Source: Desulfarculus sp. (GTDB taxonomy: Bacteria > Desulfobacterota > Desulfarculia > Desulfarculales > Desulfarculaceae). Taken from it: 64,000 bases of DNA. Below are positions 32,838 through 49,372 of the stretch, piece after piece. The position numbers were made by a program, and so were the translations under genes. The stretch is taken from NCBI GenBank assembly GCA_003605055.1, contig QZKP01000020.1, forward strand, positions 1 through 64,000, given 5' to 3'. Position 1 is the first letter of the stretch. Each line of letters starts with the position of its first letter. The notes below the pieces were generated by a model that searched no databases, was not told where the DNA came from, and saw nothing but the letters and a program-made list of their open reading frames with translations.

Positions 32838-33637
32838 TCAGGCGCGCCCCAGGCTGCGGGCTAGGTCCTGGGCCAGCCGCTGGCAGGCGGCCAGGCCGGT
32901 CTTGGCCTGCGGCGCCTCCAGCATCTGGCGCATCAAAGCGCTGCCCACGATGACTCCGTCCGCGGCCGCGGCCAGGCCTCGGGCTTGGGCCGGCGTGGCC
33001 ACCCCGAAGCCGGCCGCCACCGGCAGCCCCGCTACTTCCCGGGCCTTTTGCAGGCCGTCCAGCAGGCCCTGGTCCAGGGCCAGCTCCGCGCCGGTGACGC
33101 CCACCAGGGCCACGTAGTACAGGAAGCCGCGGCTGACCGCCGCGATGCGGGCCAGGCGCTCCGGGGGCGTGGTGGGCGCGGCCAGGAACACCGTGTCCAG
33201 GTCTTGGCCGCGGGCGGCCTCCAGCCAGGGGCCGGCCTCCTCGGGCGGCAGGTCCGGCACGATCACCCCGGCCGCGCCGGCCCCGGCGGCCCGGGCGGCG
33301 AACTCGGCCGTACCCATGGCCAAGAGAGGATTGACGTAGGTCATCAGCACCAGCGGCGCGGCCACCCGCGCCGCGGCCCGCGCCACCAGCTCCAGCACCG
33401 ACCCCGGCGTGGCCCCGGCGGCCAGGGCCAGTTGGCTGCTCCGCTGGATCACTGGGCCGTCGGCCAGGGGGTCGGAGAAGGGCACCCCCACCTCGATGAG
33501 GTCCGCGCCGGCCTGGTCCAGGGTCTGCATCAGCTCCAGGCACAGCTCCGGGTCGGGATAGCCGCCGGTGACAAAGGGCAGGAAGGCGCAGCGCCCCTGG
33601 CCGCGGGCCGCGGCAAAGGCCTCTTTGATGGACGCGC

Positions 33638-33641
<4 letters not shown>
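32838..33641 (-). CDS. trpA: Tryptophan synthase alpha chain
   Basis: A 267-residue TIM barrel that cleaves indole-3-glycerol phosphate to indole and glyceraldehyde 3-phosphate. Catalytic Glu50 and Asp61 lie in [31 protein letters not shown], the loop [12 protein letters not shown] and phosphate-binding [10 protein letters not shown] and GVIVGSAL complete the signature. It passes indole to TrpB through the intersubunit tunnel. The ATG overlaps the trpB stop (ATGA). It is the last gene of the trpDCFBA block. Confidence 0.96.
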
Positions 33642-34867
<1,226 letters not shown>

Positions 34868-35428
34868 GGTCCTTCCTTCCCGGTTGGCTCTCCACGCCGC
34901 TGGACACGTCCACGGCGTAGGGTTTGACGATCTCCACGGCCGGGGCCACGTTGGCCGGGTTCAGCCCGCCGGCCAGGATCACCGGCCGGCGGCGGGCCAG
35001 GTCTATTGCCCGGCTCCAGTCAAAGCTGCGGCCGGTGCCCCCCGGCCGGCCGGGTGCATAGGCGTCCAAGAGCAGGGTGGCGCGGGGATAGGCCCGATGA
35101 TTCAACTCCGCGTCCTCGCCCATCCGGATGGCCTTGATGACCCCCGGCCCCAGGGCCGCTACGTCATCTGCGCTCTCGCGGCCGTGCAGCTGCACCAGGT
35201 GCAGGCCGCAAAAGGCGCGCACCCGCTGCACCTCTTGCCGGGGGGCGTCCACGAACACGCCCACCGCCTGTACCCAGCGCGGCAGGGCCCGCACGATCTC
35301 CCGGGCCCGTAGCGGCGTCACCTGGCGGGGGCTGGCCGCAAAGACCAGGCCCAGCATGTCCGCGCCCAGGCGAGCGGCGGCCAGGGCGTCCTCCACCGTG
35401 GTCAGGCCGCAGATCTTCACCAGCACCA

Positions 35429-36220
35429 TCAGTCCGCCTCCGCCAGGGCGCGCAGGGCGGCCGCCGGGTCCGGCGCGCGCATCAGATGGCTGCCCACCAG
35501 GAAGGCGTCCAGGCCGCCGGCCCGCAGGCGGGCCGCCTGCTCCGGCCCGCTGATGCCGCTCTCGGCCACCACCGTGGTGCTGGCCGGAATCAGCGGGCGC
35601 AGGCGCAGGCTGGCATTGAGGTCCACCTGCAAGCTGCGCAGGTCGCGGTTGTTGACGCCCACCAGCGCCGGCCCCAGGGCCAGCACCGGCTCCAGCTCGA
35701 CCTCCTCGTGCACCTCGGGCAGCACGGCCAGGCCCAGTTCGCGGGCCTGCTGGTACAGGTCCCGGAGTTGGCCCGGCTCCAGAGCCGCGGCGATGAGCAG
35801 CACCGCGTCGGCTCCGGCGGCGCGGGCCTCGTAGAGCTGCGCCGAGGCGATGATGAAGTCCTTGCGCAGCACCGGCAGCCCCACCGCGGCGCGGGCCTGC
35901 CGCAGGTCCGTCAGCGACCCCTGGAAAAAGGGACCGTCGGTGAGCACCGACAGCGCCGCCGCCCCGCCGGCCTGGTAGCGGACGGCCCGGCTCGCCGGGT
36001 CCACCTCCGCGGCCAGGCGGCCGGCCGAGGGCGAGGCGCGTTTGATCTCGGCGATGACGGCCCGGCCGGGGCGGGCCCGCAGGGCGGCCAGGAAGTCCCG
36101 CGGCGGCGGCGCCTCTTCGGCCAGCCGCCGCAGCTCGGCCGCGCGGCCGGCCAGGGCGGCCGCCTCCAGGCGCTTGTGCTCCAGGATGCGCCGCAGCACG
36201 TCGGGCATAGGCCGGGCCAC
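35429..36220 (-). CDS. trpC: Indole-3-glycerol-phosphate synthase
   Basis: A 263-residue TIM barrel that closes the indole ring. Visible motifs: VIAEIKRASPSAG (catalytic Lys), LSVLTDGPFFQGS, PVLRKDFII, VGVNNRDLRSLQVDL and VAESGISG. It is not fused to TrpF as in E. coli. The GTG at 36220, 2 bases after trpD, gives the listed length; an ATG four codons in is equally compatible with the family. Confidence 0.95.
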   Translation of the reverse strand: MARPMPDVLRRILEHKRLEAAALAGRAAELRRLAEEAPPPRDFLAALRARPGRAVIAEIKRASPSAGRLAAEVDPASRAVRYQAGGAAALSVLTDGPFFQGSLTDLRQARAAVGLPVLRKDFIIASAQLYEARAAGADAVLLIAAALEPGQLRDLYQQARELGLAVLPEVHEEVELEPVLALGPALVGVNNRDLRSLQVDLNASLRLRPLIPASTTVVAESGISGPEQAARLRAGGLDAFLVGSHLMRAPDPAAALRALAEAD

Positions 36221-36222
36221 GC

Positions 36223-37266
36223 TCAGGCCCCCACCGCCTGGGCCGGGCGGCCCTGGCCCCGGGCCGCCAGGGTCTCCAGCTTGGCCAGGGCCGCGCCGCT
36301 GTCTATGGCCCGGGCGGCCAGCTTTATGCCCTCAAGCAGGTCCGCCGCCCGGCCGGCGGCCACCAGGGCCGCGCTGGCGTTGGCCAGCACCAGGTCGCGC
36401 CGGGGGCCGGGCTCGCCGCGCAGCACGGCCAGGGTCAGGGCCGCGTTGCGCTGGCTGTCTCCGCCCTGCACCGCCTGGGCGCCGGCCCGGCGCAGGCCCA
36501 GGTCCTCGGGCGAGATGACCAGCTTCTCCACCCGCCCCTGCTGCAAACGAGCCATCAAGGTGGGGCCGCTGAGGCTGATCTCGTCCAGGCCGCCGTGGCC
36601 GTGCACCACAAAGGCGCTGGCGCAGCCCAGGCGGCCCAGCACCCGGGCCAGGGGCTCCACCAGGGCCGGATCGTACACTCCCACCACCTGCACGTCGGCC
36701 CCGGCCGGGTTGGTCAGGGGCCCCAGCAGGTTGAATATGGTGCGCAGGCCGATCTCCCGGCGAGGGCCGATGGCGTGGCGCATGGCCTGGTGCAAGGCCG
36801 GCGCGAAGAGAAAGCCGATGCCCGCCTCCTCTATGCAGCGGCCCACCTCCTCGGGGCTCAGGTCCAGGGGCACGCCCAGGGCCTCCAGGAGGTCGGCGCT
36901 GCCGCAGCGGCTGGAGACCGAGCGATTGCCGTGCTTGGCCACGTGCAACCCGGCCCCGGCCACCACCAGGGCCGCGGTGGTGGAGACGTTGAAGGTGCCG
37001 GCGCCGTCGCCGCCGGTGCCGCAGGTGTCCACCAGGGGCTCCCCCGGCGGCAGGCGGCAGGGCACCGGCCGGCTCTTGGCCCGCATCACCTGGGCCGCGC
37101 CGGTGATCTCCTCCACGCTCTCGCCCTTCAGGCGCAGGGCCACCAGCAGGGCCGCGATCTGGGCGGGGGTGGCCTCGCCTTCCATGATCTGGGTCATGGC
37201 CCGGATCATCTCCTCCTGGGTGAGGTCCTCGCCCTGCACCGCCTTGGCGATCACCTCCTGTATCAT
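36223..37266 (-). CDS. trpD: Anthranilate phosphoribosyltransferase
   Basis: A 347-residue enzyme that joins anthranilate and PRPP. The PRPP loop GTGGDG (83-88) with NVST follows, and [36 protein letters not shown] and the C-terminal domain are all present. It is not fused to TrpG; a separate trpG lies 10 kb upstream with trpE. It is the first gene of the trpDCFBA block, and its ATG follows GGAGGAG. Two tandem WRWWR leader/terminator modules precede it, which indicates tryptophan-controlled transcription of this block independent of trpEG. Confidence 0.96.
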
Positions 37267-37301
37267 CTCGCTCCTCCGCGTTTGTGAGTCTCAACAAAAT
37301 C

Positions 37302-37337
37302 AAAAAGGCCGGGACAGCCTTTGGTCTGTCCTCGGCC
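37302..37337 (-). terminator. trpD attenuator terminator 2
   Basis: On the minus strand GGCCGAGGACAG (37337-37326) pairs with CTGTCCCGGCC (37317-37307), with one bulged A and loop ACCAAAGG. TTTTTGATTTT follows. It ends 36 bases before the trpD start. The competing antiterminator partner GGTCTGTCC lies in leader peptide 2. Confidence 0.9.
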
Positions 37338-37383
37338 TCGGGAGCGCCCGGCTGCCCATGAGCGGCCTAGGGCGGGACAGACC
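37326..37383 (-). promoter_or_regulatory. trpD attenuator 2 antiterminator pairing
   Basis: GGTCTGTCC in codons 24-26 of leader 2 (minus 37383-37375) is perfectly complementary over 9 bases to GGACAGACC, which includes the 5' arm of terminator 2 (minus 37331-37323). It begins 17 bases after the last Trp codon of the WRWW run. A ribosome stalled there would leave it free, while one at the stop codon would cover it. This is the classical attenuation geometry. Confidence 0.8.
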
Positions 37384-37453
37384 TCTGCCCGCAAAAGCGC
37401 CACCACCGCCAGGCGATGATGGGAAGGGCTGGTTTAAAGGTCGAGGTCTGCAT
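37367..37453 (-). CDS. trpL: trpD leader peptide 2 (WRWWRF)
   Basis: A 28-codon ORF, ATG at 37453 and TAG at 37369-37367. Residues 15-20 read WRWWRF, giving three Trp codons within four. It lies between terminator 1 and terminator 2, in front of trpD, and contains the antiterminator strand just downstream of the Trp codons. The ribosome-binding site is weak (a GCGG run), which may be normal for a leader. The peptide itself probably has no function beyond stalling. Its WRWWR core is identical to that of leader 1, suggesting duplication or strong selection. Confidence 0.85.
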   Translation of the reverse strand: MQTSTFKPALPIIAWRWWRFCGQRSVPP

Positions 37454-37475: not shown

Positions 37476-37517
37476 AAAGAAAAAGGCCGTGAACCTGTCT
37501 GGGTCGGGTCCACGGCC
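37476..37517 (-). terminator. trpD attenuator terminator 1
   Basis: On the minus strand GGCCGTGGACC (37517-37507) pairs with GGTTCACGGCC (37495-37485), 11 bp with one G-U. TTTTTCTTT follows. It sits after leader 1 and before leader 2. GGGTCGTCC in leader 1 (minus 37573-37565) can pair with GGACCCGACCC of the terminator arm and loop (9 bp with a 2-base bulge), a candidate antiterminator. Confidence 0.88.
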
Positions 37518-37545
37518 TGGGGTTTGTTGGGGTGGCTTGTGCTGC

Positions 37546-37617
37546 TCAGACCACCGCGGCGCGGGGACGACCCGGGAAGCGAATCCGCCACCAGCGCCAA
37601 GAGGTGCCAAGCTGCAT
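37546..37617 (-). CDS. trpL: trpD leader peptide 1 (WRWWR)
   Basis: A 23-codon ORF, ATG at 37617 and TGA at 37548-37546, starting 15 bases after the tyrA stop with GAGGAAGG as ribosome-binding site. Residues 7-11 read WRWWR. It is followed by terminator 1. The good ribosome-binding site, the Trp cluster in a 23-residue peptide, the proximity to an intrinsic terminator and a complementary strand just downstream of the Trp codons all support a trp leader. Confidence 0.88.
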   Translation of the reverse strand: MQLGTSWRWWRIRFPGRPRAAVV

Positions 37618-37632
37618 AAAATGCCTTCCTCT

Positions 37633-38484
37633 TCAAGAAGCGTCTCCTGTTTTGTATACCAAATGGGGGGCCGCGTCAAGCCCGGGGCCGAGTTTGTCCC
37701 CGCGCAAAAACGACCCCACCTCCTCCATCAGCCGGACCAGCCCGCCGCGGTCGCCGCTGGCCAGGCAGCCGGTCACCTCGGCCAGGCTCTGGCCCAGGAC
37801 CCGCATGGCCTCGGGCCCGGCCGGGTTGTGCAGGGCCAGGTCCGCGTAGAGCTCCGGCGGCTGGCGGAGCTGGTGGGCCAACATGCCCATGATGCCTTGA
37901 AACCAGGGGCCGGAGCGCTCCAGGTCCTGGGCCGGGTCAAAGCCCAGGCGCATCAGGGCCCGGCCCAGGCCCACCAGCAGCAGGTGGCGCAGGGTCTGCA
38001 CCTGGGCCATGAGCCGGTCGTGGCGTTCGGCCTCCATCTGCACCACCTGCATGCGGCCTTCCTTGAGCAGGTTCATCAGCCAGCCCAGCCAGCGGCTCCC
38101 CCGGCCGGGGCAAACGAAGACCAACTGCCCGGCCAGGGAGCGGGTGGCCGGCCCGAACAGGGGGTGCGTGCCGATCACCTCGCCCTTGGCGTGGGCCAGC
38201 ATGCTGGCCAGGGGCCCGGCCTTGAGCGAGGCGATGTCCATCACCAGGTGCTCCGGGCGGGTCAGGGGGCCGATGGCGGCCATGACCTTCTCCACCGCCG
38301 CCACCGGCACGGCCAGGATCAGCACCTGGCAGGCCTGCACGAAGCCCGCCCCCAAGGGGCCCTCGCTCAGGTCGGCGATGCTCACCGCGTGGCCGCTGTG
38401 GCGCAGGCGGCGCTCCAGCCAGCGCCCCATGCGGCCGCGGCCGCCGATGATGCCTATGGACGGTCTAAATGGCGCGACCTCCAT
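37633..38484 (-). CDS. tyrA: Prephenate dehydrogenase
   Basis: A 283-residue NAD(P)-dependent enzyme of tyrosine synthesis. The Rossmann motif is IGIIGGRGRMGRWL, followed by VLILAVPVAAVEKVM, DIASLKAG (with Ser-Leu-Lys at the substrate site) and GTHPLFGPATRSLAGQ, the prephenate-binding signature. It has no ACT or chorismate mutase domain; the mutase is in PheA. ATG at 38484 follows GGAGAGGAG. The last gene of the aroF2-pheA-tyrA block. Confidence 0.93.
   Translation of the reverse strand: MEVAPFRPSIGIIGGRGRMGRWLERRLRHSGHAVSIADLSEGPLGAGFVQACQVLILAVPVAAVEKVMAAIGPLTRPEHLVMDIASLKAGPLASMLAHAKGEVIGTHPLFGPATRSLAGQLVFVCPGRGSRWLGWLMNLLKEGRMQVVQMEAERHDRLMAQVQTLRHLLLVGLGRALMRLGFDPAQDLERSGPWFQGIMGMLAHQLRQPPELYADLALHNPAGPEAMRVLGQSLAEVTGCLASGDRGGLVRLMEEVGSFLRGDKLGPGLDAAPHLVYKTGDAS
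37653..37679 (-). promoter_or_regulatory. Possible internal promoter for the trpD block
   Basis: On the minus strand TTGACG (37679-37674) and TATACA (37658-37653) are separated by 15 bases, within the 3' end of tyrA. Transcription would start about 30 bases before leader 1, the same distance seen for the promoters before the other two leaders. The short spacing makes it tentative. Confidence 0.4.
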
Positions 38485-38522
38485 TTTCTCCTCTCCTGTG
38501 CGGTCCAGAGGGTTGAGCCCGC

Positions 38523-39665
38523 TTACATTCCCGGCAGCGACTGGCCCCGGGGATAGGAGCCCAGCACCTTGAGGAACTCCACCTCCGGCCGCATGGCCGC
38601 CAGGGCCGGGGCCAGGCGGGCATCCTGGCGGTGGCCCTGGCAGTCCACGAAAAAGGCGTACTCCCAGGGCCGGTCCTTGATGGGCCGGGACTGGATGTGG
38701 GTCAGGTTCACGCCCCGCCGCGCCAGGTGGCCCAGGGACCGGCAGAGAGCGCCCGGCCGGTGGTCCAGCCCGAAAAACAGCGAGGTCTTGTCCTGGCCGG
38801 TGGGCGGACAGGGCCGCCGGCCCAGGATCAGAAAGCGGGTGGTGTTCAGCGGGCTGTCCTGGATGTCCGCGGCCAGCATGTTGAGCTGGTAGTGCTGGGC
38901 GGTGAGCGCGCTGCCCACCGCCGCCCCGCCCGGCTCCTGGGCGGCCAGAAGGGCCGCGGCCGCAGTGCTGGCCGCCTCCCGCAGCTCGGCCTGGGGCAGC
39001 CGGCGGCGCAGCCAGCCGCGGCACTGGTGCAGGGCCTGGGGGTGGGAGTGCACCCGCGTCACGTAGGCCAACTCGGCCTCGCGGGACATCAAGACGTGCC
39101 CCACCCGGGCGTAGATCTCCCCGCACACGTTCAGGCGCGAGGTCATGAGCGTATCCAGGGTCTCGTTCACCCCGCCCTGGCTGGAGTTCTCCACCGGCAC
39201 CACCCCCAGGGGGCTGCGGTTGGCCTCCACCTCGGCGAAGACCTCGGCGATGCTTTCCTGGGGGTCGTACTCGCAACTGCGGCCGAAGTGGCTCAGGGCC
39301 GCCTGGTGGCTGAAGGTGTGCTCCGGCCCCAGGAAGGCCACCCGCAGGGGCTCCTGCACCTGGCGGCAGGCGGAGATGATCTCCCGGAAGATGTGGCGCA
39401 GCGACTCCGCGGCCAGGGGGCCGCCGTTGTCCTGGCCGAGGGCCTCCAGCACCTGAGCCTCGCGCTCGGGCACAAACAGGGGTTGGTCGCCGGCGGCCTT
39501 GTACTGGGCGATGGCCTGGGCCTGCTGGGCCCGCTGGTTCAAGAGCTCCTGCAGGGAGCGGTCGATCTCATCAATCTTCTGCCGGGCCTGGGCCAGGGCC
39601 TGCTGGGACCAGTCCGCCTCGCTGGGCTGGATCAGGCCGGTCTCGGGGGAGGAGTTGGCTGGCAT
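38523..39665 (-). CDS. pheA: Bifunctional chorismate mutase/prephenate dehydratase (P-protein)
   Basis: A 380-residue protein with an AroQ-type chorismate mutase (about 20-105: ARQKIDEIDRSLQELLNQRAQQAQAIAQYK), a prephenate dehydratase (about 108-285: VAFLGPEHTFSHQAA, VVPVENSSQGGVNETLD, NTTRFLILG) and an ACT regulatory domain (about 295-370: LFFGLDHRPGALCRSLGHLARRGVNLTHIQSRPI). ACT suggests Phe feedback inhibition; the usual ESRP is QSRP here. ATG at 39665 has GAGGTGGG upstream. It supplies prephenate for TyrA as well as phenylpyruvate. Confidence 0.95.
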   Translation of the reverse strand: MPANSSPETGLIQPSEADWSQQALAQARQKIDEIDRSLQELLNQRAQQAQAIAQYKAAGDQPLFVPEREAQVLEALGQDNGGPLAAESLRHIFREIISACRQVQEPLRVAFLGPEHTFSHQAALSHFGRSCEYDPQESIAEVFAEVEANRSPLGVVPVENSSQGGVNETLDTLMTSRLNVCGEIYARVGHVLMSREAELAYVTRVHSHPQALHQCRGWLRRRLPQAELREAASTAAAALLAAQEPGGAAVGSALTAQHYQLNMLAADIQDSPLNTTRFLILGRRPCPPTGQDKTSLFFGLDHRPGALCRSLGHLARRGVNLTHIQSRPIKDRPWEYAFFVDCQGHRQDARLAPALAAMRPEVEFLKVLGSYPRGQSLPGM

Positions 39666-39706
39666 ATCCCACCTCACGCTTTCTAAAGAAAAAACCAGGG
39701 GCTGGC

Positions 39707-40582
39707 CTACGCCCGCAGGGGCAGCAGGCTGCGCAAGAGGTTCAGCTCGGCCATGAGCCGGCTGAACTCCTCGGGCCGCAGGGACTGCTCGCCGTCGCAG
39801 AGGGCGTCCTCGGGCCGGTGGTGCACCTCCACCATCACCCCGTCGGCCCCCACCGCCAGGGCGGCCCGGGCCAGGGGCCCCACCCAGCGGCGCTGGCCCA
39901 CGGCGTGGCTGGGGTCCACGATTACCGGCAGATGGGTCATCTCCTTGAGCACGCACACCGCGCTCAAATCCAAGGTGTTGCGCGTGGCGGTCTCGAAGGT
40001 GCGGATGCCCCGCTCGCAGAGGATCACCTGGGAGTTGCCCTCGGCCATGATGTACTCGGCCGAGAGCAAGAGCTCCTTGACCGTGGTCATCAGGCCGCGC
40101 TTGAGCAGCACCGGCTTGCGGCAGCGCCCCACCTTCTTGAGCAGGGAGAAGTTCTGCACGTTGCGGGCCCCCACCTGGATGATGTCCGCGCAGGCCTCCA
40201 CCAGCTCCAGCTCGGCGCTGTCCATCACCTCGGTGACCACCGGCAGGCCGGTCAGCTCCCGGGCCCTGGCCAGCAGCTCCAGCCCTTCGGGGCCCAGACC
40301 CTGGAAGCTGTAGGGCGAGGAGCGCGGCTTATAGGCGCCGCCCCGGAGCACCCCGGCCCCGGCCCGCTTGACCGCCTGGGCGGTGGCCATGAGCTGCTGA
40401 TAGCTCTCCACCGAGCAGGGACCGGCGATGACCACGAAGCCGCCTCCTCCGATCTGCACCCCGGGCAGGGAGATCACCGTGTCCTGGCGGTGCCATTGCC
40501 GGCTGGCCAGGTCCTGCGGCAGCGGCCCGGCCTGCGCGGCCGTCCCCGCCAACTTCTCTATCTCCGCTCTCGCCTGTATCAC
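39707..40582 (-). CDS. aroF: 3-deoxy-7-phosphoheptulonate synthase, type Ib, short form
   Basis: A 291-residue DAHP synthase of the AroFI-beta/KDO8P-synthase-like class: [71 protein letters not shown] and [12 protein letters not shown]. It lacks most of the N-terminal ferredoxin-like regulatory domain found in the paralogue at 46060-47097. GTG start at 40582 after GGAGGG. It begins the Phe/Tyr block, directly after a Phe/Tyr leader and attenuator, so it is probably the DAHP synthase tuned to Phe/Tyr demand. Confidence 0.93.
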
Positions 40583-40640
40583 CGCAACCCTCCATCCATC
40601 TCGCGGCCTGGGCGCCGCCGCCGGCCCGTTTGCCCAGAAC

Positions 40641-40681
40641 AAAAAAGGCCATGGGCGGCTTTTCGTCCGCCCATGGCCTTT
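40641..40681 (-). terminator. aroF2-pheA-tyrA attenuator terminator
   Basis: On the minus strand AAAGGCCATGGGCGG pairs with CCGCCCATGGCCTTT over 15 bp (forward 40644-40658 with 40667-40681), with an 8-base loop and TTTTTT following. This is the strongest intrinsic terminator in the window. It sits 59 bases before the aroF2 start. Confidence 0.93.
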
Positions 40682-40740
40682 GGTTTTGGCTTTTTTGCTA
40701 AGCTAGCTTAGTCTTCGGCCTCCCCGCGCCACGGACGGAC
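40655..40740 (-). promoter_or_regulatory. aroF2-pheA-tyrA antiterminator pairing
   Basis: GTCCGTCCGTGGC in codons 32-36 of the leader (minus 40740-40728) nearly repeats the terminator 3' arm sense. It can pair over 13 bases, two of them G-U, with GCCATGGGCGGAC that includes the terminator 5' arm. It starts 6 bases after the last codon of the Phe/Tyr run. Stalling within that run would favour the antiterminator; reading to the stop codon would favour the terminator. Confidence 0.8.
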
Positions 40741-40833
40741 GGCGGCAAAATAATAAAAGCTAAAATAGAAATAGCTCCGCCCGGGAAGCTGCTTCCCAGG
40801 TTGGCCAAAACTATTTGCCGCTGTCTTGGTCAT
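40708..40833 (-). CDS. Phe/Tyr leader peptide (YFYFSFYYF)
   Basis: A 41-codon ORF, ATG at 40833 and TAA at 40710-40708. Residues 21-29 read YFYFSFYYF: four Tyr and four Phe codons in nine. The terminator begins 27 bases after the stop codon. The ribosome-binding site (AGAGG) is close and weak. It precedes the DAHP synthase, P-protein and prephenate dehydrogenase genes, whose end products are exactly Phe and Tyr. In enterics pheL contains a Phe run; a mixed Phe/Tyr run fits a block that makes both. Confidence 0.9.
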   Translation of the reverse strand: MTKTAANSFGQPGKQLPGRSYFYFSFYYFAAVRPWRGEAED

Positions 40834-40868: not shown

Positions 40869-40896
40869 ACTATATGCCTTTTATTGCCGCTGTCAA
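40869..40896 (-). promoter_or_regulatory. Sigma70-type promoter for the Phe/Tyr block
   Basis: On the minus strand TTGACA (40896-40891), a 16-base spacer and TATAGT (40874-40869) form a near-consensus promoter in an AT-rich stretch just after aroQ. Transcription would begin about 30 bases before the leader ATG. Hence the aroF2-pheA-tyrA block probably has its own promoter plus attenuator. Confidence 0.75.
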
Positions 40897-40938: not shown

Positions 40939-41379
40939 CTAGGCCGAGCGGCTGCCTTCCTGGGCGAACCACCACAGGGCCAGGGCATAGGAGCGCCAGC
41001 CGAAGCCCGCCACCGAGCCCTGGCACACCTCGGCCAGCAGCGACACCCGCCGGAACTCCTCGCGGGCCTGGGGGTTGCTCAGGTGCACCTCCACCACCGG
41101 CGCCCCGCAGCAGGCCACCGCGTCGCGCATTGCCACGCTGGTGTGGGTGTAGGCCCCGGCGTTGAGCACCACGCCCTCGGCCTCTTGCCCGGCCCGCTGC
41201 AGGGCCTCCACCAGCTCGCCCTCGTGGTTGGACTGGAAGAAGCTCAGCTCCAGGCCCAGCCCGTGGGCCAGCTCTTGCAGGCGCTCGTTGATCTCCGCGA
41301 GCGTCAGGCTGCCGTAGTGCCTGGCTTCGCGCCGGCCCAGCATGTTCAGGTTGGGCCCGTTGATCACCGCGATCTTCAC
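40939..41379 (-). CDS. aroQ: Type II 3-dehydroquinate dehydratase
   Basis: A 146-residue type II dehydroquinase that forms 3-dehydroshikimate. VINGPNLNMLGRREARHYGSLTL carries the catalytic Tyr22 and Arg loop; FFQSNHEGELVEAL, NAGAYTHTSVAMRDA and EVHLSNPQAREEFRR complete the active site. The ATG overlaps the aroC stop. It ends the trpE-aro block. Confidence 0.95.
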   Translation of the reverse strand: MKIAVINGPNLNMLGRREARHYGSLTLAEINERLQELAHGLGLELSFFQSNHEGELVEALQRAGQEAEGVVLNAGAYTHTSVAMRDAVACCGAPVVEVHLSNPQAREEFRRVSLLAEVCQGSVAGFGWRSYALALWWFAQEGSRSA

Positions 41380-42437
41380 AGCGCCGCTCCTCTCTGGGTC
41401 CCCTGGGCCAGCCAGGCGTCGGCCAGCACCAGGGCGGCCATGGCCTCGGCCACCGGCGCCACCCGCGGGCAGAGGCAGGGGTCGTGGCGGCCCTGGATGC
41501 GTATGCGCCGGGGCCGGCCCTTGAGGTCTATAGTCTGCTGCTCCCGGGCGATGGAGGGCGTGGGCTTGATTGCCAGGCGCAGCCGGATGTCCTGGCCGGT
41601 GGAGATGCCGCCCAGGATGCCGCCGCAGTGGTTGCTCAAGAACCCCTCCGCCCCCATCTGGTCGTTGTTCTCCGAGCCCCGGCGGCCGGCGGCGGCGAAG
41701 CCGTCGCCGATCTCCACGCCCTTGACCCCGCCGATGGAGAGCATGGCCCCGCCCAGGGCCGCGTCCAGCTTGTCCATGACCGGGTCGCCCAGGCCGGCGG
41801 GCACGCCTTGGGCAAGCAGCTCCACCACCCCGCCCATTGAGTCGCCCTGGGCCCGGGCCGCCTGCACCTGCTCGACCATGGCCGCGGCGGCCTGGGGGTC
41901 GGCGCAGCGCAGGGGGTCGCTAAAGGCGAAGGCCAGGTCCACCCGCGAGGCCCGCACCGGGCCGATGGCCAGGGTGTAGGCCTGTACGGTCACGCCCAGG
42001 GGCGCCAGCAGGGCCCGGGCCACGGCCCCGGCCGCCACCCGGCCCACCGTCTCCCGGCCCGAGGCCCGGCCTCCGCCGGGCTGCGGCGCCAGGCCGTATT
42101 TCTGGTAGTAGGTGTAGTCCGCGTGGCCGGGCCGGAACACCTCGGCCAGGGTCTGGTAATCGCCGGAGCGGGCGTCCTGGTTGCGCACCAGCAGGGCGAT
42201 GGGCGAGCCCATGGTCTTGCCCTGGGCCAGGCCCGAGAGTATCTCCACCCGGTCCGGCTCCTGGCGGGCCGAGGTCAGCGGCGAGGCGCCGGGCCGGCGG
42301 CGGTCCAGGTCGGCCTGGATCGTGGCCGCGTCCAGGGCCAGGCCGGCGGGCACGCCCTCCAGCACCACGCCCACGGCCGGGCCGTGGGACTCGCCGAAGG
42401 TGGCCGCGCGCAAATATCTGCCGAAGATGCTGCCCAT
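41376..42437 (-). CDS. aroC: Chorismate synthase
   Basis: A 353-residue FMN-dependent enzyme that converts EPSP to chorismate, the branch-point compound. Signatures: RYLRAATFGESHGPAVG at the N-terminus, GKTMGSPIALLVRNQD, PGHADYTYYQKYG, GGGRASGRETVGRVAAGAVA, and GGILGGISTGQDI. It starts 1 base after the aroKB stop. Expected to be a tetramer in the cytosol. Confidence 0.96.
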   Translation of the reverse strand: MGSIFGRYLRAATFGESHGPAVGVVLEGVPAGLALDAATIQADLDRRRPGASPLTSARQEPDRVEILSGLAQGKTMGSPIALLVRNQDARSGDYQTLAEVFRPGHADYTYYQKYGLAPQPGGGRASGRETVGRVAAGAVARALLAPLGVTVQAYTLAIGPVRASRVDLAFAFSDPLRCADPQAAAAMVEQVQAARAQGDSMGGVVELLAQGVPAGLGDPVMDKLDAALGGAMLSIGGVKGVEIGDGFAAAGRRGSENNDQMGAEGFLSNHCGGILGGISTGQDIRLRLAIKPTPSIAREQQTIDLKGRPRRIRIQGRHDPCLCPRVAPVAEAMAALVLADAWLAQGTQRGAAL

Positions 42438-42438
42438 G

Positions 42439-43998
42439 CTAGCCTCTCTTCACCGCGTCAATGGCCTTTTGCAACTCGGCCGGCCGCACGTCCTCGGCCA
42501 CCAGCGGCCGGCCCGGGCCGGCCAGGAGCACGAACACCACCTTGCCGCCGCAGTTCTTCTTGTCGCTCTGCATGAGCGGCCAGGCCTCGGCCGCCGGCGG
42601 CAGCACCAGCTTCTTGGGCAGCAGCGGCTGCAAGGCGCTGTGTATGCGGCCGGCGGCCTCGCCCTGGAGCAGGCCCCGCCGGTCCGAGAGCGCCGCGGCC
42701 ACCATGATGCCCGCGGCCACCGCCTGCCCGTGGCTGAGGCCGAAGCGGCTCAGGCCCTCCAGGGCGTGGCCGTAGGTGTGGCCCAGGTTGAGGATGCGCC
42801 GGCGGCCGCCCTCCCTAAAGTCCTCGGCCACCACCGCGGCCTTGGCCCGGGCGGCCAGCCCGGCCACCTGGGCCAGGCCCAGCAGGTCGCCGCGCAGCAG
42901 GGAGTCCATCTCCGCCTCCACCCGCCGGGCCAGGGCCGGCGCGGCCACCAGGCCGGTCTTGTAGGCCTCGGTCAGGCCCTCGGCGATCTGGGGCCGGGCC
43001 AGGGTGGCCAGGGACTTCAGGTCCAAGAGCACCGCCTGGGGCCGAGTAAACAGGCCCACCTGATTCTTGGCCGGCCCCAGGTCCACCGCGGCCTTGCCGC
43101 CCACGGCCGCGTCCACGCAGCCCAGCAGGGTGGTGGAGGCCAGGACGAAGGGCAGGCCCCGCTTGTAGGTGGCGGCCACGAAGGCCCCCAGGTCCGTGAC
43201 CACCCCGCCGCCCAGGGCCACCAGCAAATCGCCGCGTTCGATGCCCGCCTGCAACATGGCCTTGTAGATGCGCTCGGCGCTGCGCAGGGTCTTGCTGCGC
43301 TCGCCGGCCGGGAGGGCGATGACCAGGGGCTCGTCCAGGGGAGCGCGGTAGCGGGCCAGATGCAGGCGGGCCAGCTTGCGGTCGGTGAGCAGCACCGCCC
43401 GGCGGCCGGCCGCCAGTTCGGCCAGGACCCGCGGCCCCTGCCAAGTGCTTATCACCGGACAGTCCACGCCGTCCAGGGAGACGTTGAAGCGCTCGTCGGG
43501 CAGCAGAGCAACGGCGATGGCCTCGGCCAACTGCTGCGGCCCGTTGCCGTCCACGGACACCTTGAGGTCATGGTCGGCGTAGGCCTGCTGCCGGCTGGCG
43601 AACAGCGCGGCCAGGCCGGCCGGGTCCTGCCAGAGGGGCCGCTTCTTCACCTCGCTGGGCCCCAGGTGGCGGCGGCAGACGGCCAGGCTGGCCTCCAGGA
43701 AGATGATGCGGCCCGAGGCGCGCATGAGCCGGCGGTTGGCCGCCCGCTGGGGCAGACCGCCGCCGGTAGCCACCACCAGGCCCCGCCGCTGAGCCACGGA
43801 CCGCAGCTCCGCGGTCTCCAGGCGGCGGAAGGCCTCCTCGCCTTGCTCGGCGAAGACCTGGGCCACGGACCGGCCCAGGCGGCGGGAGATGCTGCGGTCC
43901 AGGCTGAGGAAGCGGCGGCCCAGCGCCTGAGCCAGGGCCCGCCCCACCGTGGACTTGCCCGCGCCCATGAAGCCGGTGATGTAGAGATTGTCCTTCAC
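42439..43998 (-). CDS. aroKB: Shikimate kinase fused to 3-dehydroquinate synthase
   Basis: A 519-residue fusion. Residues 1-165 are shikimate kinase: Walker A GFMGAGKST (9-17), EEAFRRLE and ATGGGLPQR. Residues from about 180 are 3-dehydroquinate synthase: AGERSKTL, VALGGGVVTDLGAFVAATYKRGLPFVLASTTLLGCVDAAVGGK split across the NAD and metal regions, and the Zn site NLGHTYGHALE. The two enzymes act at steps 5 and 2 of the pathway, so the fusion does not join consecutive steps. GTG start at 43998 overlaps the aroE stop. Confidence 0.94.
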   Translation of the reverse strand: MKDNLYITGFMGAGKSTVGRALAQALGRRFLSLDRSISRRLGRSVAQVFAEQGEEAFRRLETAELRSVAQRRGLVVATGGGLPQRAANRRLMRASGRIIFLEASLAVCRRHLGPSEVKKRPLWQDPAGLAALFASRQQAYADHDLKVSVDGNGPQQLAEAIAVALLPDERFNVSLDGVDCPVISTWQGPRVLAELAAGRRAVLLTDRKLARLHLARYRAPLDEPLVIALPAGERSKTLRSAERIYKAMLQAGIERGDLLVALGGGVVTDLGAFVAATYKRGLPFVLASTTLLGCVDAAVGGKAAVDLGPAKNQVGLFTRPQAVLLDLKSLATLARPQIAEGLTEAYKTGLVAAPALARRVEAEMDSLLRGDLLGLAQVAGLAARAKAAVVAEDFREGGRRRILNLGHTYGHALEGLSRFGLSHGQAVAAGIMVAAALSDRRGLLQGEAAGRIHSALQPLLPKKLVLPPAAEAWPLMQSDKKNCGGKVVFVLLAGPGRPLVAEDVRPAELQKAIDAVKRG

Positions 43999-44816
43999 GC
44001 CACCCCCTCCAAGGCCCGCTGGAAGCTGGCCAGGGGCACCTCCCGGCCGGTCCAGATGAAAAAGCTCAGCCGGGCCTGGCAGGCCAGCATGGCCAGGCCG
44101 TCGCAAAAGGCCGCGCCGGAGGCGGCGGCCAGCCGGGCCCAGATATTCTCCGCCCGGCCGTAGTTGATGTCCATCACCAGCCCACAGCGGCTGTCCAGGC
44201 AGAGGCCCAGGGCAAAGGCGGCCATGGCCGGCGACTCGGCCGGGCTGGAGACGCTGGTGGCGTTGACGATCAGCTCCGCCTGGCCGGCCACCGCGGCCGC
44301 CTGAGCGAGGTCCAGGGGTTCGCCGCCCAGGCGCTCGGTCAGGGCCCGCGCCCGCCGGGGGCTGCGGCCGGCCACCTGCACCGAGGCCGCGCCCTGCTCG
44401 TGCAGGGCCTGCACCACGGCCCGGGCCGCGCCGCCGGCCCCCAGCACCAGGCAGCGCCGGCCGCCGGCCGCGAAGCCGGCCTGGCCCAGGGCCTGGGCAA
44501 ATCCGTCCACGTCGGTGTTGTGGCCTTCCAGCACGCCGCGCCGGAGGGCCAGGGTGTTCACCGCGCCCAGGGCCGCGGCCTGGGGCGTAAGCTCCTCGGC
44601 CAGGGCCGCGGCCGCCTCCTTGTGCGGCACGGTGACGTTGACCCCGGTCAGGCCCAGGGCCCGCAGCCCGGCCAGGGCCGCGGCCAACTGGTCCGGCTGT
44701 ACGGCAAAGGGCAGGTACACCCCGTCCAGGCCCAGCTCGGCCAGCACCGCGTTGTGCATGGCCGGCGACAGGGAGTGGGCCGCCCGAGCATCGCTTATGA
44801 CGCCCAAGAGCATCAT
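43995..44816 (-). CDS. aroE: Shikimate dehydrogenase
   Basis: A 273-residue NADP-dependent enzyme that reduces 3-dehydroshikimate. HSLSPAMHNA, GVNVTVPHKEAAA (catalytic Lys), GHNTDVDGFAQAL (catalytic Asp), and the NADP motif VLGAGGAARAV with AGRSPRRARAL are present. Two consecutive ATG codons exist; the first at 44816 overlaps the aroA stop and lies 10 bases after GGAGG. Confidence 0.94.
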   Translation of the reverse strand: MMLLGVISDARAAHSLSPAMHNAVLAELGLDGVYLPFAVQPDQLAAALAGLRALGLTGVNVTVPHKEAAAALAEELTPQAAALGAVNTLALRRGVLEGHNTDVDGFAQALGQAGFAAGGRRCLVLGAGGAARAVVQALHEQGAASVQVAGRSPRRARALTERLGGEPLDLAQAAAVAGQAELIVNATSVSSPAESPAMAAFALGLCLDSRCGLVMDINYGRAENIWARLAAASGAAFCDGLAMLACQARLSFFIWTGREVPLASFQRALEGVA

Positions 44817-46063
44817 GACAGTAGCGCCTCCAAGGTTTCCGCGAAGCCGGGGTAGGAGATGGCCACGCACTCCTGGCCGGCGATGGCCGGCCGCGCCCCG
44901 GCCAGCAGCCCGGCCAGGCGCAGGGTCATGGCCATGCGGTGGTCGCCCAAGCTGTCCAGGTCCTCCGGGGCGCGCAGCGGGGTGGGGCCTTCCACCACCA
45001 AATCCTCGCCGCGCACCCGCAGCCGGGCGCCCAGGGCCCCCAACTGGCTGACCAGGGCGGCCAGGCGGTCGGTCTCCTTGAGGCGCAGCTCGCCCACCTG
45101 CTCGAACACGGCGACCCCCCGCGCCTGAGTGGCGGCCAAGGCCAGGACGGGCACCTCGTCCACCAGCAGGCCGATCTCCCCGGCCGTTACCCGGCAGCCG
45201 GTCAGCTCCGGCGAATAGGCCGCCCGCACCCGCCCCCAGGGCTCGGGCTCCGCGCCCTGCTCCTCCACCTGCACCCGGGCCCCCATGCGCGCAAGCACGC
45301 TCAGGAAGCCGGTGCGGGTGGGGTTGAGCAGCACGCCCTCGGCCGTCACCTCGCTGCCGGGGATGATCGCGGCCGCGCAGAGGAAGAAGGCCGCCGAGGA
45401 GGCGTCGCCCGGCACGCGCAGGGCCGCGGGCAGGGTCAGTTCCGAAGGCTCCAGCCGCCAGATGCCGGCCTCGCCGGTGATGTCGGCCCCGCACAGGGCC
45501 AGCAGGCGCTCGGTGTGGTCGCGGCTGGGGGCCGGCTCCAGCACGGTGGTGGCGCCCGCAGCGCGCAGGCCGGCCAACAGGACGGCGCTCTTGAGCTGGG
45601 CGCTGGCCACGGGCAGATGGTACGCGATGCCTTTAAGCCCGCCGCCAATCACCCGCACCGGCGGCCGGCCGTCGCGGCACTCAACCGCGGCCCCCATCCG
45701 CCTCAGCGGCGCGGCCACCCGCTCCATGGGCCGGCGGGAAAGGGACTCGTCGCCGCTCAGGGTGAAGCGTCCGCGCACCCCGGCCAACAACCCCATGAGC
45801 AGGCGCATGGTGGTGCCCGAGTTGCCGCAGTCCAGATAGGCCTGCTCCTTCAGGCGCCCGCCCATGCCCTCCAGCCAAAGCTCGCCGTTTTGCCGTCGCA
45901 CGGACCCCCCCAGGGCCTCCACCGCGGCCAGGGTGGAGGCGCAGTCCTGCCCCGGGGCGTAGTTGCTCACCCGGCAGGCGCCCGCGGCCAGCAGCGACAG
46001 GAGCCCGATGCGGTGGGAGATGGACTTGTCCCCCGGCGGGCTGAAGGAGCCTTGGAGTTTCAT
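44813..46063 (-). CDS. aroA: 5-enolpyruvylshikimate-3-phosphate synthase
   Basis: A 416-residue enzyme that joins shikimate 3-phosphate and [62 protein letters not shown] and [14 protein letters not shown] (catalytic Asp and Glu) all fit. The PEP loop has [10 protein letters not shown], Gly retained as in the common glyphosate-sensitive layout. The start overlaps the upstream DAHP synthase stop (ATGA). Confidence 0.96.
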
Positions 46064-47097
46064 GCCGCCGCCCCCAGACCGCGGCCCAGGGCCGCGGCCA
46101 CCTTTTTCAGATCAGCCATCATGTCCGCGAAGGCCTCCGGGGTCAGGCTCTGGCGGCCGTCGGAAAAGGCGCGCTCAGGGTCGGCGTGCACCTCCACCAT
46201 CACCGCGTCGGCCCCGGCGGCCACCGCCGCCCGGGCCAGGGCCGGCACCAGCTCGCGCTTGCCCGCGGCGTGGCTGGGGTCCACCAGCACCGGCAGGTGG
46301 GTGTGCTGCTTGAGCAGGGGCACCGCCGAGATGTCCAGGGTGTTGCGGGTCTCGGTCTCGAAGGTGCGCACCCCGCGCTCGCAGAGGATCACCTGCCAGT
46401 TGCCCCGGGCCAGGATGTACTCGGCCGAGAGCAAAAGCTCCTTGATGGTGGCCATCAGACCGCGCTTGAGGAGCACCGGCTTGTCCACCTCGCCCACCGC
46501 CTCCAAGAGGGCGAAGTTCTGCATGTTGCGGGTGCCGATCTGCAAGACGTCGGCGTAGCGGGCCACCAGCTCCACGTCGCTGGCCCGCAGCACCTCGGTG
46601 ACGATGGGCAGGCCGGTGATCTCACGGGCCTCGGCCATGATCTTCAGGCCCTCCTCGCCCAGGCCCCGGAAGGAGTAGGGCGAGGTGCGCGGCTTGAAGG
46701 CCCCGCCCCGCAGCACCCCCGCCCCCAGGGGGGCCAGGCGCTGGGCCAGCTCCAGGTAGCCCTGGCGCGACTCCACGGCGCAGGGCCCGGCCATCACCAC
46801 CACCTCGCGGCCGCCGATGCTGCCCCGGCCCAGCTTGATGCTGGTGGTCTGGGCGCGGAAGTTGCGGGAGACCAGCTTCCAGGAGGTGCCGAAGCGGTTG
46901 ATCTCCTCCACCCCGGCCAGGCGGCTGATCTGGGCGGTCAGCTCCTCGGCCAGGGCCTGGCTGATCTCCTCCACCACCCCCAGCACCACCTGGGGGCCGG
47001 GCGAGATGATGCGCGGCTCCAGGCCGCGCTGGCGCAGGGCGGAGATGACCAGGGCCACCTCGCCCTTCTGACAACCCTCGCGCATGCCGATGACCAT
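46060..47097 (-). CDS. aroF: 3-deoxy-7-phosphoheptulonate synthase, type Ib with N-terminal regulatory domain
   Basis: A 345-residue DAHP synthase. Residues 1-80 form a ferredoxin-like domain ([20 protein letters not shown], then [20 protein letters not shown]), as in Thermotoga-type enzymes where it mediates Tyr/Phe inhibition. The catalytic domain has [63 protein letters not shown] and [12 protein letters not shown]. It is closely related to the short paralogue at 39707-40582, so the supraoperon carries two, one per control block. Confidence 0.94.
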
Positions 47098-47111: not shown

Positions 47112-47717
47112 CTAGGACCCGGCCTGGGCCGCGGCCGTCCGCGCCCGGCCCAGGTAGAGGTCCAGGAAATTGGTGAAGATCATCATGCCCTGGTGGGTGG
47201 CGATGGACTCGGGGTGGAACTGCACGCCCTCCAGCATCAGCTCGCTGCTGCGCAGGCCCATCACCTCGCCCTCGCTGGTGTAGGCCGACACGCTCAGCGG
47301 CGGCCGCACGCTGGCCTCGGGCACGATCAGGGAGTGGTAGCGGGCGGCGGCGAAGGGGTTGCGCAGGCCGCTGTAAATGCCCTTGCCGTCGTGGAAGACC
47401 TGGCTGATCTTGCCGTGCACCGGCCGGTTGGCGCGCACCACCTGGGCTCCGAACACCTCGGCCAAGGCCTGGTGCCCCAGGCAGACCCCCATGATGGGCA
47501 TCCTGCCTGCGAAGCGCTCGATGGCCGCGCAGGTGATGCCAGAGTCCTCGGGCCGGCCGGGGCCGGGGGAGATGAAGATGGCCTCGGGCGCCAGGTCCTG
47601 TATCTCCTGCAGGCCGATGGCGTCGTTGCGCCGCACCTCCAGGCTGCGGCCCAACACGCCCAGGGCCTGGGCGATGTTGTAGGTGAAGGAGTCGTAATTG
47701 TCTATCAAGAGGATCAT
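47112..47717 (-). CDS. trpG: Anthranilate synthase component II, glutamine amidotransferase
   Basis: A 201-residue class I amidotransferase that supplies ammonia to Trp[26 protein letters not shown], nucleophile Cys79 in [10 protein letters not shown], and the His-Glu of [13 protein letters not shown] are intact. The same protein could also serve PabB, as in many bacteria with one copy. The start overlaps the trpE stop (ATGA). Confidence 0.95.
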
Positions 47718-49099
47718 AGCGAGGCCTCCGCCGCCGCGCGCAGGGCGGCGATGCCCTGGGCGGCCTTGTGCTGGATCTCGGCGTACTCCATCTCGGGCAG
47801 GGAGTCGGCCACGATGCCCGCCCCGGCTTGCAGGGTCACCTGGTCGCCCTGGAACTGGATCATGCGGATGGCGATGCAGGTGTCCATGCGCGGGCCGGGC
47901 CCGAAGCAGCCCACCGCCCCGGCGTAGGGGCCGCGGGGCAGCGCCTCCAGCTCGTCTATGATCTGGGCGGCCCGCACCTTGGGCGCGCCGGAGACGGTGC
48001 CGGCCGGGAAGCCGGCCCGGAAGGCGTCCCAGGCGTCCAGGCCCGGGCGCAGGCGGCCGGTGACCTCCGAGACGATGTGCATCACGTGGCTGTAGCGCTC
48101 CACGGCCATGTAGGGCTCCACCGCCACCGAGCCGTACTCGGCCACCCGGCCCACGTCGTTGCGGGCCAGGTCCACCAGCATGATGTGCTCGGCCCGCTCC
48201 TTTTCCGAGGCCATCAGCTCCCGCTCCAGCTCCTGATCCCGCCGGGGGTCGGCCGAGCGGCCGCGGGTGCCGGCCAGGGGCCGGATCTGCACCCGGCCGG
48301 CCTCGGTCTTGACCAGGGTTTCGGGCGAGGCCCCCACCAGGCGCAGGTCGTCCAGGTGCAGGAAGAACATGTAGGGCGAGGGGCTTTTCACCCGCAGCCA
48401 GCGGTACACGGTCAGCGGGTCCAGATCGCTTTGGCCGCGGAACTGGTCGGAGAGCACCACCTGGAAGATGTCCCCGGCCAGGATGTATTCCTTGGCCCGT
48501 CGCACCGCCTCCTGGAAGCGCTCCCGGGGCGGGTCGCTGATGCTGAGCTGGGCCAGGCGGCCGCTGATCCGCAGCGGGTGGCGCAGACGGTCCTCGATAT
48601 CGGCCAGCCGGGCCTGGGCCGCGGCCTGGTCGCGGTCAATGCCCACCAGGGTCATGGTGCGCTGCAGGTGGTCAAAAACCAGGAAGCTGGCCGGGAAGCA
48701 GAGGTCGGCGATGGGCAGCTCCTGGGCCGGGGCCGGGCCCAGGGGCTCGATGAGCCGCAGGGCGTCGTAGCCCACATAGCCCAACAGCGAGCCCACGAAG
48801 GGCAGGTCCGGCAGGCCCTGGCAGTCCAGCTCGCCCAGGACCCGGCGGGCCAGGGCGAAGAACTCGGCCGGCGCGTGGCGGCTGGCCTGGCCGCCCTGAT
48901 CCAGCTCCAGGCGGTCGTGCCACAGGCGCAGGCGGCACAGCGGCTCCCAGGTCACGATGGAGTAGCGGCCCACGTTCTCGTGGGTCTCGCCGCTCTCGAA
49001 GAGAAACGAACAGCTCTGGCCGCGGCAGAGCTTCAGATAGGCCGACACCGGCGTCTCCACGTCGGCCAGCAAGTTTTTGGTCGCCGCCTGCAAGGACAT
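47714..49099 (-). CDS. trpE: Anthranilate synthase component I
   Basis: A 461-residue chorismate-utilising enzyme. The N-terminal domain has [19 protein letters not shown], the counterpart of the LLES tryptophan-inhibition motif. The catalytic domain shows [67 protein letters not shown] and [14 protein letters not shown]. With TrpG it makes anthranilate from chorismate. It is the first gene of an eight-gene block and lies downstream of a FFSYYWW leader and terminator. Confidence 0.96.
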
Positions 49100-49116
49100 A
49101 CCAGGCCTTTCGCCCC

Positions 49117-49148
49117 AAATAAAAAACCCACCGTCCGGCGACGGTGGG
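49117..49148 (-). terminator. trpE attenuator terminator
   Basis: On the minus strand CCCACCGTC (49148-49140), loop GCCG and GACGGTGGG (49135-49127) form a 9-bp GC-rich hairpin followed by TTTTTTATTT. It lies between the leader stop codon and the trpE start, ending 18 bases before the ATG. Confidence 0.93.
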
Positions 49149-49208
49149 CTGTGTGCTTTGGGGTGCTGGGGTTTCTAGCTACGCCACTTAGGCACCGGCT
49201 CCACCGTC
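49140..49208 (-). promoter_or_regulatory. trpE antiterminator pairing
   Basis: GACGGTGG in leader codons 36-39 (minus 49208-49201) repeats the terminator 3' arm and can pair over 8 bases with CCACCGTC of the 5' arm. It starts 12 bases after the second of two adjacent Trp codons. Ribosome stalling at the Tyr-Tyr-Trp-Trp run leaves it free; translation to the stop codon at 49175 masks it. Confidence 0.8.
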
Positions 49209-49315
49209 ACGGGTGAGCTCCACCAATAGTAGCTAAAGAACAGGGGCAGCGCGGCGGCCAGGCTCAACAGGGTGGCCTGCAACAGGGAGATCAGGTTGTG
49301 CCCGCCGTGAAACAT
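49175..49315 (-). CDS. trpL: Aromatic leader peptide before trpE (FFSYYWW)
   Basis: A 46-codon ORF, ATG at 49315 and TAG at 49177-49175. Residues 26-32 read FFSYYWW, a run covering all three aromatic amino acids; a further Trp is at 44. It begins about 23 bases after a predicted transcription start and ends 27 bases before the attenuator hairpin. The downstream block makes chorismate plus anthranilate, the common supply for Phe, Tyr and Trp, so a triple-sensing leader is logical. The peptide is hydrophobic at residues 8-32 and could insert into a membrane, so a second role as a small membrane protein is possible. Confidence 0.85.
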   Translation of the reverse strand: MFHGGHNLISLLQATLLSLAAALPLFFSYYWWSSPVTVEPVPKWRS

Positions 49316-49344: not shown

Positions 49345-49372
49345 TTTCTACGTCCCGGCGCGAATTTGTCAA
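49345..49372 (-). promoter_or_regulatory. Sigma70-type promoter of the trpE-aro block
   Basis: On the minus strand TTGACA (49372-49367), a 16-base spacer and TAGAAA (49350-49345) lie in a locally AT-rich stretch. The predicted transcript start, near 49338, leaves a short untranslated region before the leader ATG. Confidence 0.7.

Follow-up and report, generated by a model that had tools for sequence, protein, structure and literature searches.

The window analysed here is a stretch of 64,000 nucleotides from Desulfarculus sp. (contig QZKP01000020.1), and it carries, behind a short leader referred to as leader 1, a cluster of 16 genes on one strand. The first half of the cluster consists of trpE, trpG, DAHP synthase 1, aroA, aroE, aroK-aroB, aroC and aroQ, and the second half of DAHP synthase 2, pheA, tyrA, trpD, trpC, trpF, trpB and trpA, in that order. 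Together, these genes cover the steps to Phe, Tyr and Trp, save the final transaminations. The genes and the protein models on which their assignments rest are as follows.

47714-49099, minus strand: trpE, anthranilate synthase component I (NCBIfam TIGR00564 the best match, below its curated cut-off)
47112-47717, minus strand: trpG, glutamine amidotransferase of anthranilate synthase (TIGR00566, above cut-off)
46060-47097, minus strand: DAHP synthase 1 (TIGR01361 / PRK08673, above cut-off)
44813-46063, minus strand: aroA, EPSP synthase (TIGR01356, above cut-off)
43995-44804, minus strand: aroE, shikimate dehydrogenase, start approximate (TIGR00507, at cut-off)
42439-43998, minus strand: aroK-aroB fusion, shikimate kinase / dehydroquinate synthase (AroB and AroK-AroB models the best matches, below strict cut-offs)
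41376-42437, minus strand: aroC, chorismate synthase (TIGR00033, above cut-off)
40939-41379, minus strand: aroQ, type II 3-dehydroquinate dehydratase (TIGR01088, above cut-off)
39707-40642, minus strand: DAHP synthase 2, longest frame, with the true start probably further in (TIGR01361 / PRK08673, above cut-off)
38523-39698, minus strand: pheA, chorismate mutase / prephenate dehydratase (PRK11898, above cut-off)
37633-38520, minus strand: tyrA-like prephenate dehydrogenase (PRK11199 the best match, below cut-off)
32838-37266, minus strand: trpD-trpC-trpF-trpB-trpA (NCBIfam, at least one model at or above cut-off for each gene)

Leader 1 is flanked by a promoter-like TTGACA (49372) on one side and by trpE, the start of which is at 49099, on the other. 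Its elements, read from the sequence, the terminator scan and the ribosome-position scan described below, are the following.

49345-49372, minus strand: probable leader 1 promoter, TTGACA at 49372-49367, 16 nt, then TAGAAA at 49350-49345 (sequence)
49175-49315, minus strand: leader 1 ORF of 46 codons, MFHGGHNLISLLQATLLSLAAALPLFFSYYWWSSPVTVEPVPKWRS, with ATG at 49315 and a stop codon ending at 49175
49220-49240, minus strand: control codons TTC TTT AGC TAC TAT TGG TGG (F F S Y Y W W), codons 26-32
49201-49210, minus strand: region 2, antiterminator 5' strand GTGACGGTGG, 10 bp pairing with CCACCGTCGC
49140-49150, minus strand: region 3, terminator 5' arm AGCCCACCGTC, common to the antiterminator (terminator scan, ribosome-position scan)
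49115-49135, minus strand: region 4, terminator 3' arm GACGGTGGGTT and T-run (terminator scan)

The original prediction of a 46-codon trpE leader with FFSYYWW at residues 26-32 is confirmed, and its coordinates are correct. Leaders orthologous to leader 1 and located upstream of trpE in relatives are 41-49 codons long. Within the putative promoter, TAGAAA makes a weak -10 element; a comparison of upstream regions indicates that TTGACA is kept at this position in relatives. Leader 1 is multivalent in that its control codons for F, Y and W have the pheA, tyrA and trp genes linked behind them.

The leader 1 ORF is followed by a strong intrinsic terminator, AGCCCACCGTC-GCCG-GACGGTGGGTT plus a T-run (49150-49115), which has a perfect 11-bp stem and a 4-nt loop and was independently recovered by a terminator scanner. 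The motif GACGGTGG occurs at 49208-49201, within the ORF, and again in the terminator 3' arm at 49135-49128. That the first copy can pair with the 5' arm, as had been proposed from the letters, is borne out by computation of a 10-bp antiterminator between GUGACGGUGG (49210-49201) and CCACCGUCGC of the terminator 5' side. This antiterminator is the minimum-free-energy fold of a leader RNA that ends before the complete terminator 3' arm, and on folding it is mutually exclusive with the terminator. The letters that pair among regions 2, 3 and 4 in leader 1 are GACGGTGG / CCACCGTC. A counterpart of region 2 is present in most relatives, and its pairing is kept with changed letters in some of them, namely as GGCGGTG with CACCGCC in L002 and L013 and as GGTGGGCT with AGCCCACC in L003, L004 and L017. 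The stability of the whole-leader fold is not unusual compared with shuffled sequences (z -0.45). At gathering thresholds, a scan of the window with Rfam covariance models gave no match; at permissive thresholds leader 1 gave chance-level microRNA and lncRNA matches alone (E up to 10), and the T-box model had no match in the leader 1 region in the Rfam scans.

The same observations bear on the reading of leader 1 as a gene for a small membrane protein that happens to be followed by an unrelated terminator before trpE. The window peptide does contain a hydrophobic segment (LISLLQATLLSLAAALPLFFSYYWW), as that reading would have it. However, hydrophobicity is not kept in relatives (e.g. MQKDQNNQDGRSARPMAEVACAPVSGVWFYWWRSP), a Pfam search of the leader 1 peptide returned zero matches, and relatives preserve the RNA pairings with the terminator. 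Because the hydrophobic segment is not conserved in orthologues, the membrane protein reading is rejected as having a negligible chance of being correct.

How the control codons might be coupled to the RNA structures was modelled by a ribosome-position scan, in which the RNA covered by a ribosome with its A site at a given codon, taken to extend 12 nt downstream, was removed and the readout was the frequency of pairing between regions 2 and 3 prior to synthesis of region 4. The antiterminator probability remains on one plateau whichever of the F, Y and W codons the ribosome occupies, and it falls directly after the last W. With the assumed footprint of 12 nt (a change to 10 or 14 nt displaces the boundary by about one codon at most), the position of the drop coincides with the last Trp codon in 15 of 18 leaders and is no more than one codon away from it in 17 of 18. 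When the stretch between the control codons and the terminator was shuffled, this register, taken together with a probability of at least 0.75 at the first W, was reached in 2.8 % of 144 shuffles. As modelled, then, the antiterminator is free when the ribosome is stalled at the control codons and excludes the terminator. In L005-L008 and L012 the probability dips just upstream of the F codon, as would be expected if a 1:2 hairpin competes; in those leaders, the effect would accordingly be confined approximately to the F-to-W run. The window leader has no upstream dip. Without a ribosome, the antiterminator value of the window leader is 1.00, and values across the modelled leaders range from 0.41 to 1.00. 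Since many of the leader RNAs fold without a strong 1:2 hairpin, an untranslated leader is predicted to read through rather than terminate, unlike in E. coli trp, where a region 1:2 hairpin leads to termination when the leader is not translated (superattenuation).

A simple race model following Elf and Ehrenberg (PMC1183508), with assumed rates, was used to examine the logic of the control run; its point is symmetry and OR behaviour. For FFSYYWW, read-through is 0.00 under replete conditions, 0.44 when only F, only Y or only W is slowed tenfold, and 0.97 when all three are slow. Three codon pairs in series mean that shortage of any one amino acid would be enough, i.e. OR logic. The earlier proposal of an AND/OR sensor for the common pathway thus stands in its OR part; the AND part is not supported by codons in series or by the simple race model. 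For relatives that have a single Y and two or three W, a Trp-weighted response is predicted.

Three further leaders lie downstream within the cluster.

40869-40896, minus strand: promoter-like site before leader 2, TTGACA, 16 nt, TATAGT (sequence)
40708-40833, minus strand: leader 2 ORF, Phe/Tyr-rich, MTKTAANSFGQPGKQLPGRSYFYFSFYYFAAVRPWRGEAED, kept before DAHP synthase 2 in relatives
40636-40681, minus strand: leader 2 terminator, CCATGGGCGG / CCGCCCATGG and T-run (sequence, terminator scan)
37546-37617, minus strand: leader 3 ORF, Trp-rich, MQLGTSWRWWRIRFPGRPRAAVV (sequence, leader scan)
37476-37518, minus strand: leader 3 terminator (sequence, terminator scan)
37367-37453, minus strand: leader 4 ORF, Trp-rich, MQTSTFKPALPIIAWRWWRFCGQRSVPP (sequence)
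37296-37331, minus strand: leader 4 terminator, approximate (sequence, terminator scan)

Leader 2, between aroQ and DAHP synthase 2, has the control run SYFYFSFYYF, in which Phe and Tyr are the only control residues. In the ribosome scan, for terminators that were correctly identified, its boundary coincides with or adjoins the last F or Y, rows with a wrong hairpin or none for some leader 2, leader 4 and head leaders (L120, L123, L129, L181 and others) having been left out. Leaders 3 and 4 are arranged in tandem between tyrA and trpD, are Trp-only and have one terminator each. The leader set recurs in relatives, with L123 and L129 having the first Trp leader only before trpD; in L120, leader 4 reads EFYWW although trp genes alone follow. 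The two DAHP synthases, at 46060-47097 and 39707-40642, belong to the same family and lie behind different leaders (FYW and FY, respectively), as if they were separately controlled entry points. Additionally, the palindrome TTGTATACAA or a near-match recurs near the leader 1 and leader 3 promoters (L003, L004, L006, L007, L009, L013, L120, L123 and L129), located in relatives upstream of the -35 element or near the ATG, and TTGTATACCA is found before leader 3 in the window (37652-37661). The palindrome may be the operator of a repressor.

For an assessment of conservation, trpE-upstream regions were gathered from members of the family, the class and the phylum. Both F and Y adjoin WW in 16/16 trpE leaders of full clusters (the window's included; 14 within the family and one each in families f5 and f58, the full cluster being inferred from a second contig of the same genome, on which the remaining genes lie in the same order, for G009, G010, G012, G017, G019 and G061, whose contigs end before pheA) vs 0/50 leaders of trp-only operons, which include loci from distant phyla among the TrpE matches listed and for which linkage was judged from gene tables or, for some, from there being no pheA match nearby on the same contig. 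Among the 50 trp-only leaders, F is near the Trp run in seven, Y in four and both in none. The contrast gives a Fisher p of 1e-15, although the sequences are related and not phylogenetically independent; because of this relatedness, more weight is placed on the separate architectures described below, of which there are perhaps three to five. Within the 16 leaders, F is concentrated in the W run and the eight codons before it (30/164 inside vs 12/544 outside; Fisher 8e-12), as is Y (18/164 inside vs 2/544 outside; Fisher 2e-10). The peptides are otherwise divergent, and their N-terminal parts cannot be aligned by eye. The leader ends of relatives include FFGYYWWW, CFYWW, GFYWW, GFYWWW, WFYWW (several), FFYFWW, RFYFWW, AYFWWWW and FLFYWW, and in one relative WLYWW, where F lies six codons ahead of the Trp pair. 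Tandem FF and YY occur together only in the window leader and its nearest relative (L002), the others having one to three F and one Y. The use of synonymous codons and the varying order of the residues imply that it is the amino acids, not the nucleotides, that have been kept. It had been reasoned at the outset that orthologues retaining only Trp would reduce leader 1 to an ordinary trp leader; with F and Y in 16/16, such a loss is not seen among the full clusters.

Two relatives, L013 and L009, do have Trp-only trpE leaders. In the first, which comes from a single-contig genome of 3,655,731 bases (G001), trpEG-DAHPS1-aroA-E-KB-C lies behind the leader GGWRRW with no pheA, tyrA or trpD following, and DAHPS2-pheA-tyrA is found elsewhere in the genome (L150) behind a Phe/Tyr leader, GVYYFSYFYF. 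The loss of F and Y in L013 therefore accompanies a split of the cluster, and common-pathway genes together with trpEG are still behind a Trp-only leader there. In L009, from a 54 %-complete genome, the leader is GGWW and the contig ends in aroE, short of where the Phe/Tyr branch would lie. The split pair L013/L150 amounts to a natural test of the rule relating codon content to operon content. As a separate observation, the pheA matches of G005, G129, G211, G224, G226 and others have in-frame TAG, TAA or TGA codons (one or two each), which could reflect misassembly, pseudogenes, recoding or an alignment that runs beyond the gene end.

Trivalent F/Y/W leaders of unrelated peptide sequence also head clusters of other gene orders at several loci in the phylum. 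In other families the cluster opens with DAHP synthase-aroB-pheA and closes with tyrA-trpEGDCFBA; head leaders of such clusters are YFWGFYFYYWF (L173), FGWWFYFYYCF (L177), WFGYFYFY (L180) and YFWFGYFY (L181), and ahead of trpE, L173, L180 and L181 have a WWW-only leader and L179 has one with YWWW. The head leader of the full cluster in L179, NWHRYYYYW, has W and Y without F. The pheA-aroA-tyrA-trp cluster of L230, the order reported for Desulfovibrio, is headed by FCQYWYYWF; its relatives L250-L254 have SWYFFAYF or SWYYFAYF with no co-linear trp found in the stretch examined, and the head leader of L183, likewise a cluster of the Desulfovibrio order, is FYFWYWF. A simple scan found no clear intrinsic terminator in L250-L254 or L183. 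The L185 leader, YYVGAYLYFWGW, has W, and trp genes are adjacent to it but divergent, with none co-linear in the stretch examined. At pheA loci unlinked to trp, the leaders are of the Phe/Tyr type (L150, L232, L243 and L244), with L249 having a terminal W, and their runs include DFFFFGFYFF, GFYFYFFRS, CYFYFYYFF and TFYFYFYYLWP. The leader of a DAHP synthase-trp operon reads FWWCWWW. A strict rule, by which the codons would equal the products of the co-linear genes, is too strong, given L013, L179, L185, L250-L254 and leader 4 of L120; judged from these sequences, codon content appears to track pathway content broadly, not strictly.

The conservation data allow two other readings of leader 1 to be weighed. 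In an ordinary trp attenuator, the tandem Trp codons alone would do the sensing, with Phe and Tyr being incidental or helping in some other way (e.g. by slow, hydrophobic passage); that the control window of every type A leader closes with the Trp codons, that L009 and L013 keep Trp only, and that F or Y by itself is near the Trp run in 7/50 and 4/50 trp-only leaders, respectively, would fit with this. However, F and Y occur together in every full-cluster leader and in no trp-only leader, Phe/Tyr-only leaders lie in the same register before pheA, and trivalent leaders with unrelated peptides recur in clusters of different order, all of which makes sensing by Trp alone unlikely. Alternatively, the leader might be a nascent-peptide sensor of the TnaC kind, in which an FYWW peptide arrests the ribosome on free aromatic amino acid instead of reading out tRNA charging. 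A short peptide with an aromatic cluster at a fixed distance from regulatory RNA is compatible with such a sensor; yet there is free variation in the order of the aromatic residues and in the distances between them (FFSYYWW, FYWW, YFWWWW, FFYFWW and VFGGWLYWW), no other residue is kept throughout, unlike in an arrest peptide, and the downstream genes are biosynthetic, for which attenuation by tRNA charging is the established mode. An arrest peptide is accordingly considered highly improbable.

Leader 1 is best read as a putative ribosome-mediated transcription attenuator, responsive by OR logic to each of the three aromatic amino acids and standing first in a tiered set, an interpretation given a probability of roughly 0.84. 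Sequence and computation show the ORF with its codons, the terminator, the mutually exclusive pairings and how these are conserved, as well as a link of leader codons to the content of the operon; translation of the leader 1 ORF, its coupling to RNA polymerase and its response to uncharged tRNA are what we infer. According to the proposed mechanism, RNA polymerase would start approximately 30 nt upstream of the leader 1 ORF, followed by a ribosome translating the leader. When charged tRNA-Phe, tRNA-Tyr or tRNA-Trp is short, the ribosome would stall within F F S Y Y W W. A stall at any control codon would leave region 2 (GUGACGGUGG), which lies 15 nt past the first Trp codon, free to capture region 3 (CCACCGUC) before region 4 is synthesized, such that no terminator forms and trpEG and the shikimate genes are transcribed. 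With all three plentiful, the ribosome would cover region 2, region 3 would pair with region 4, and transcription would end before trpE.

Across the cluster, leader 1 precedes trpEG and the common pathway, the Phe/Tyr leader precedes DAHP synthase 2-pheA-tyrA, and the two Trp leaders precede trpDCFBA. It seems reasonably likely that these leaders constitute one tiered programme (Phe, Tyr and Trp, then Phe and Tyr, then Trp twice) with codon sets matching the genes behind them, and that codon types have been gained or lost as clusters joined or split, several times independently in the phylum. The shared steps appear to be under a single RNA switch that reads all three end products, and switches for single branches lie further down the cluster. 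Provided that the leaders work as predicted, their codon composition tracks operon gene content, and the gains, losses and splits would offer a natural series for reading the evolution of a logic gate from sequence. No description of an aromatic trivalent leader or of a tiered FYW / FY / W arrangement was found in the openly licensed literature, although a prior mention is possible.

Within the same phylum, a comparable case is that of Desulfovibrio vulgaris, for which the part of PMC1173090 that includes Table 7 gives a putative attenuator before the aroA'-aroB'-pheA-aroF-tyrA-trp supraoperon, so that there, too, an aromatic supraoperon has a predicted attenuator in front of it; that part gives no leader peptide or control codons, whereas L230, with the same pheA-aroA-tyrA-trp order, has FCQYWYYWF. 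The E. coli trp attenuator (trpL) resembles leader 1 in having a short ORF with tandem Trp codons before trpE, mutually exclusive antiterminator and terminator hairpins and an intrinsic terminator before the first gene. However, leader 1 adds Phe and Tyr codons, heads the whole aromatic pathway, has 46 codons rather than 14, and runs through region 2 with its stop approximately 25 nt past it; furthermore, many leaders of relatives are without the strong region 1:2 hairpin of the E. coli system, and leader 1 matches no Rfam family. The E. coli pheA attenuator (pheL) also has Phe codons in its leader peptide, and leader 2 is its nearest equivalent here, but leader 1 carries Tyr and Trp codons as well and leader 2 mixes Phe and Tyr. 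Each of the textbook trp and phe leaders monitors a single amino acid, and in enterobacteria the shared aromatic pathway is controlled by repressors together with feedback on isozymes. Single leaders with codons for several end products of their operon are known from enterobacterial ilvGMEDA (Leu, Val and Ile), the textbook multivalent case, and thr (Thr and Ile). Compared with the leaders of these two operons, both of which are among the attenuated operons listed in PMC1183508, the set sensed here would consist of Phe, Tyr and Trp, and the cluster itself contains further attenuators downstream, each for a single branch.
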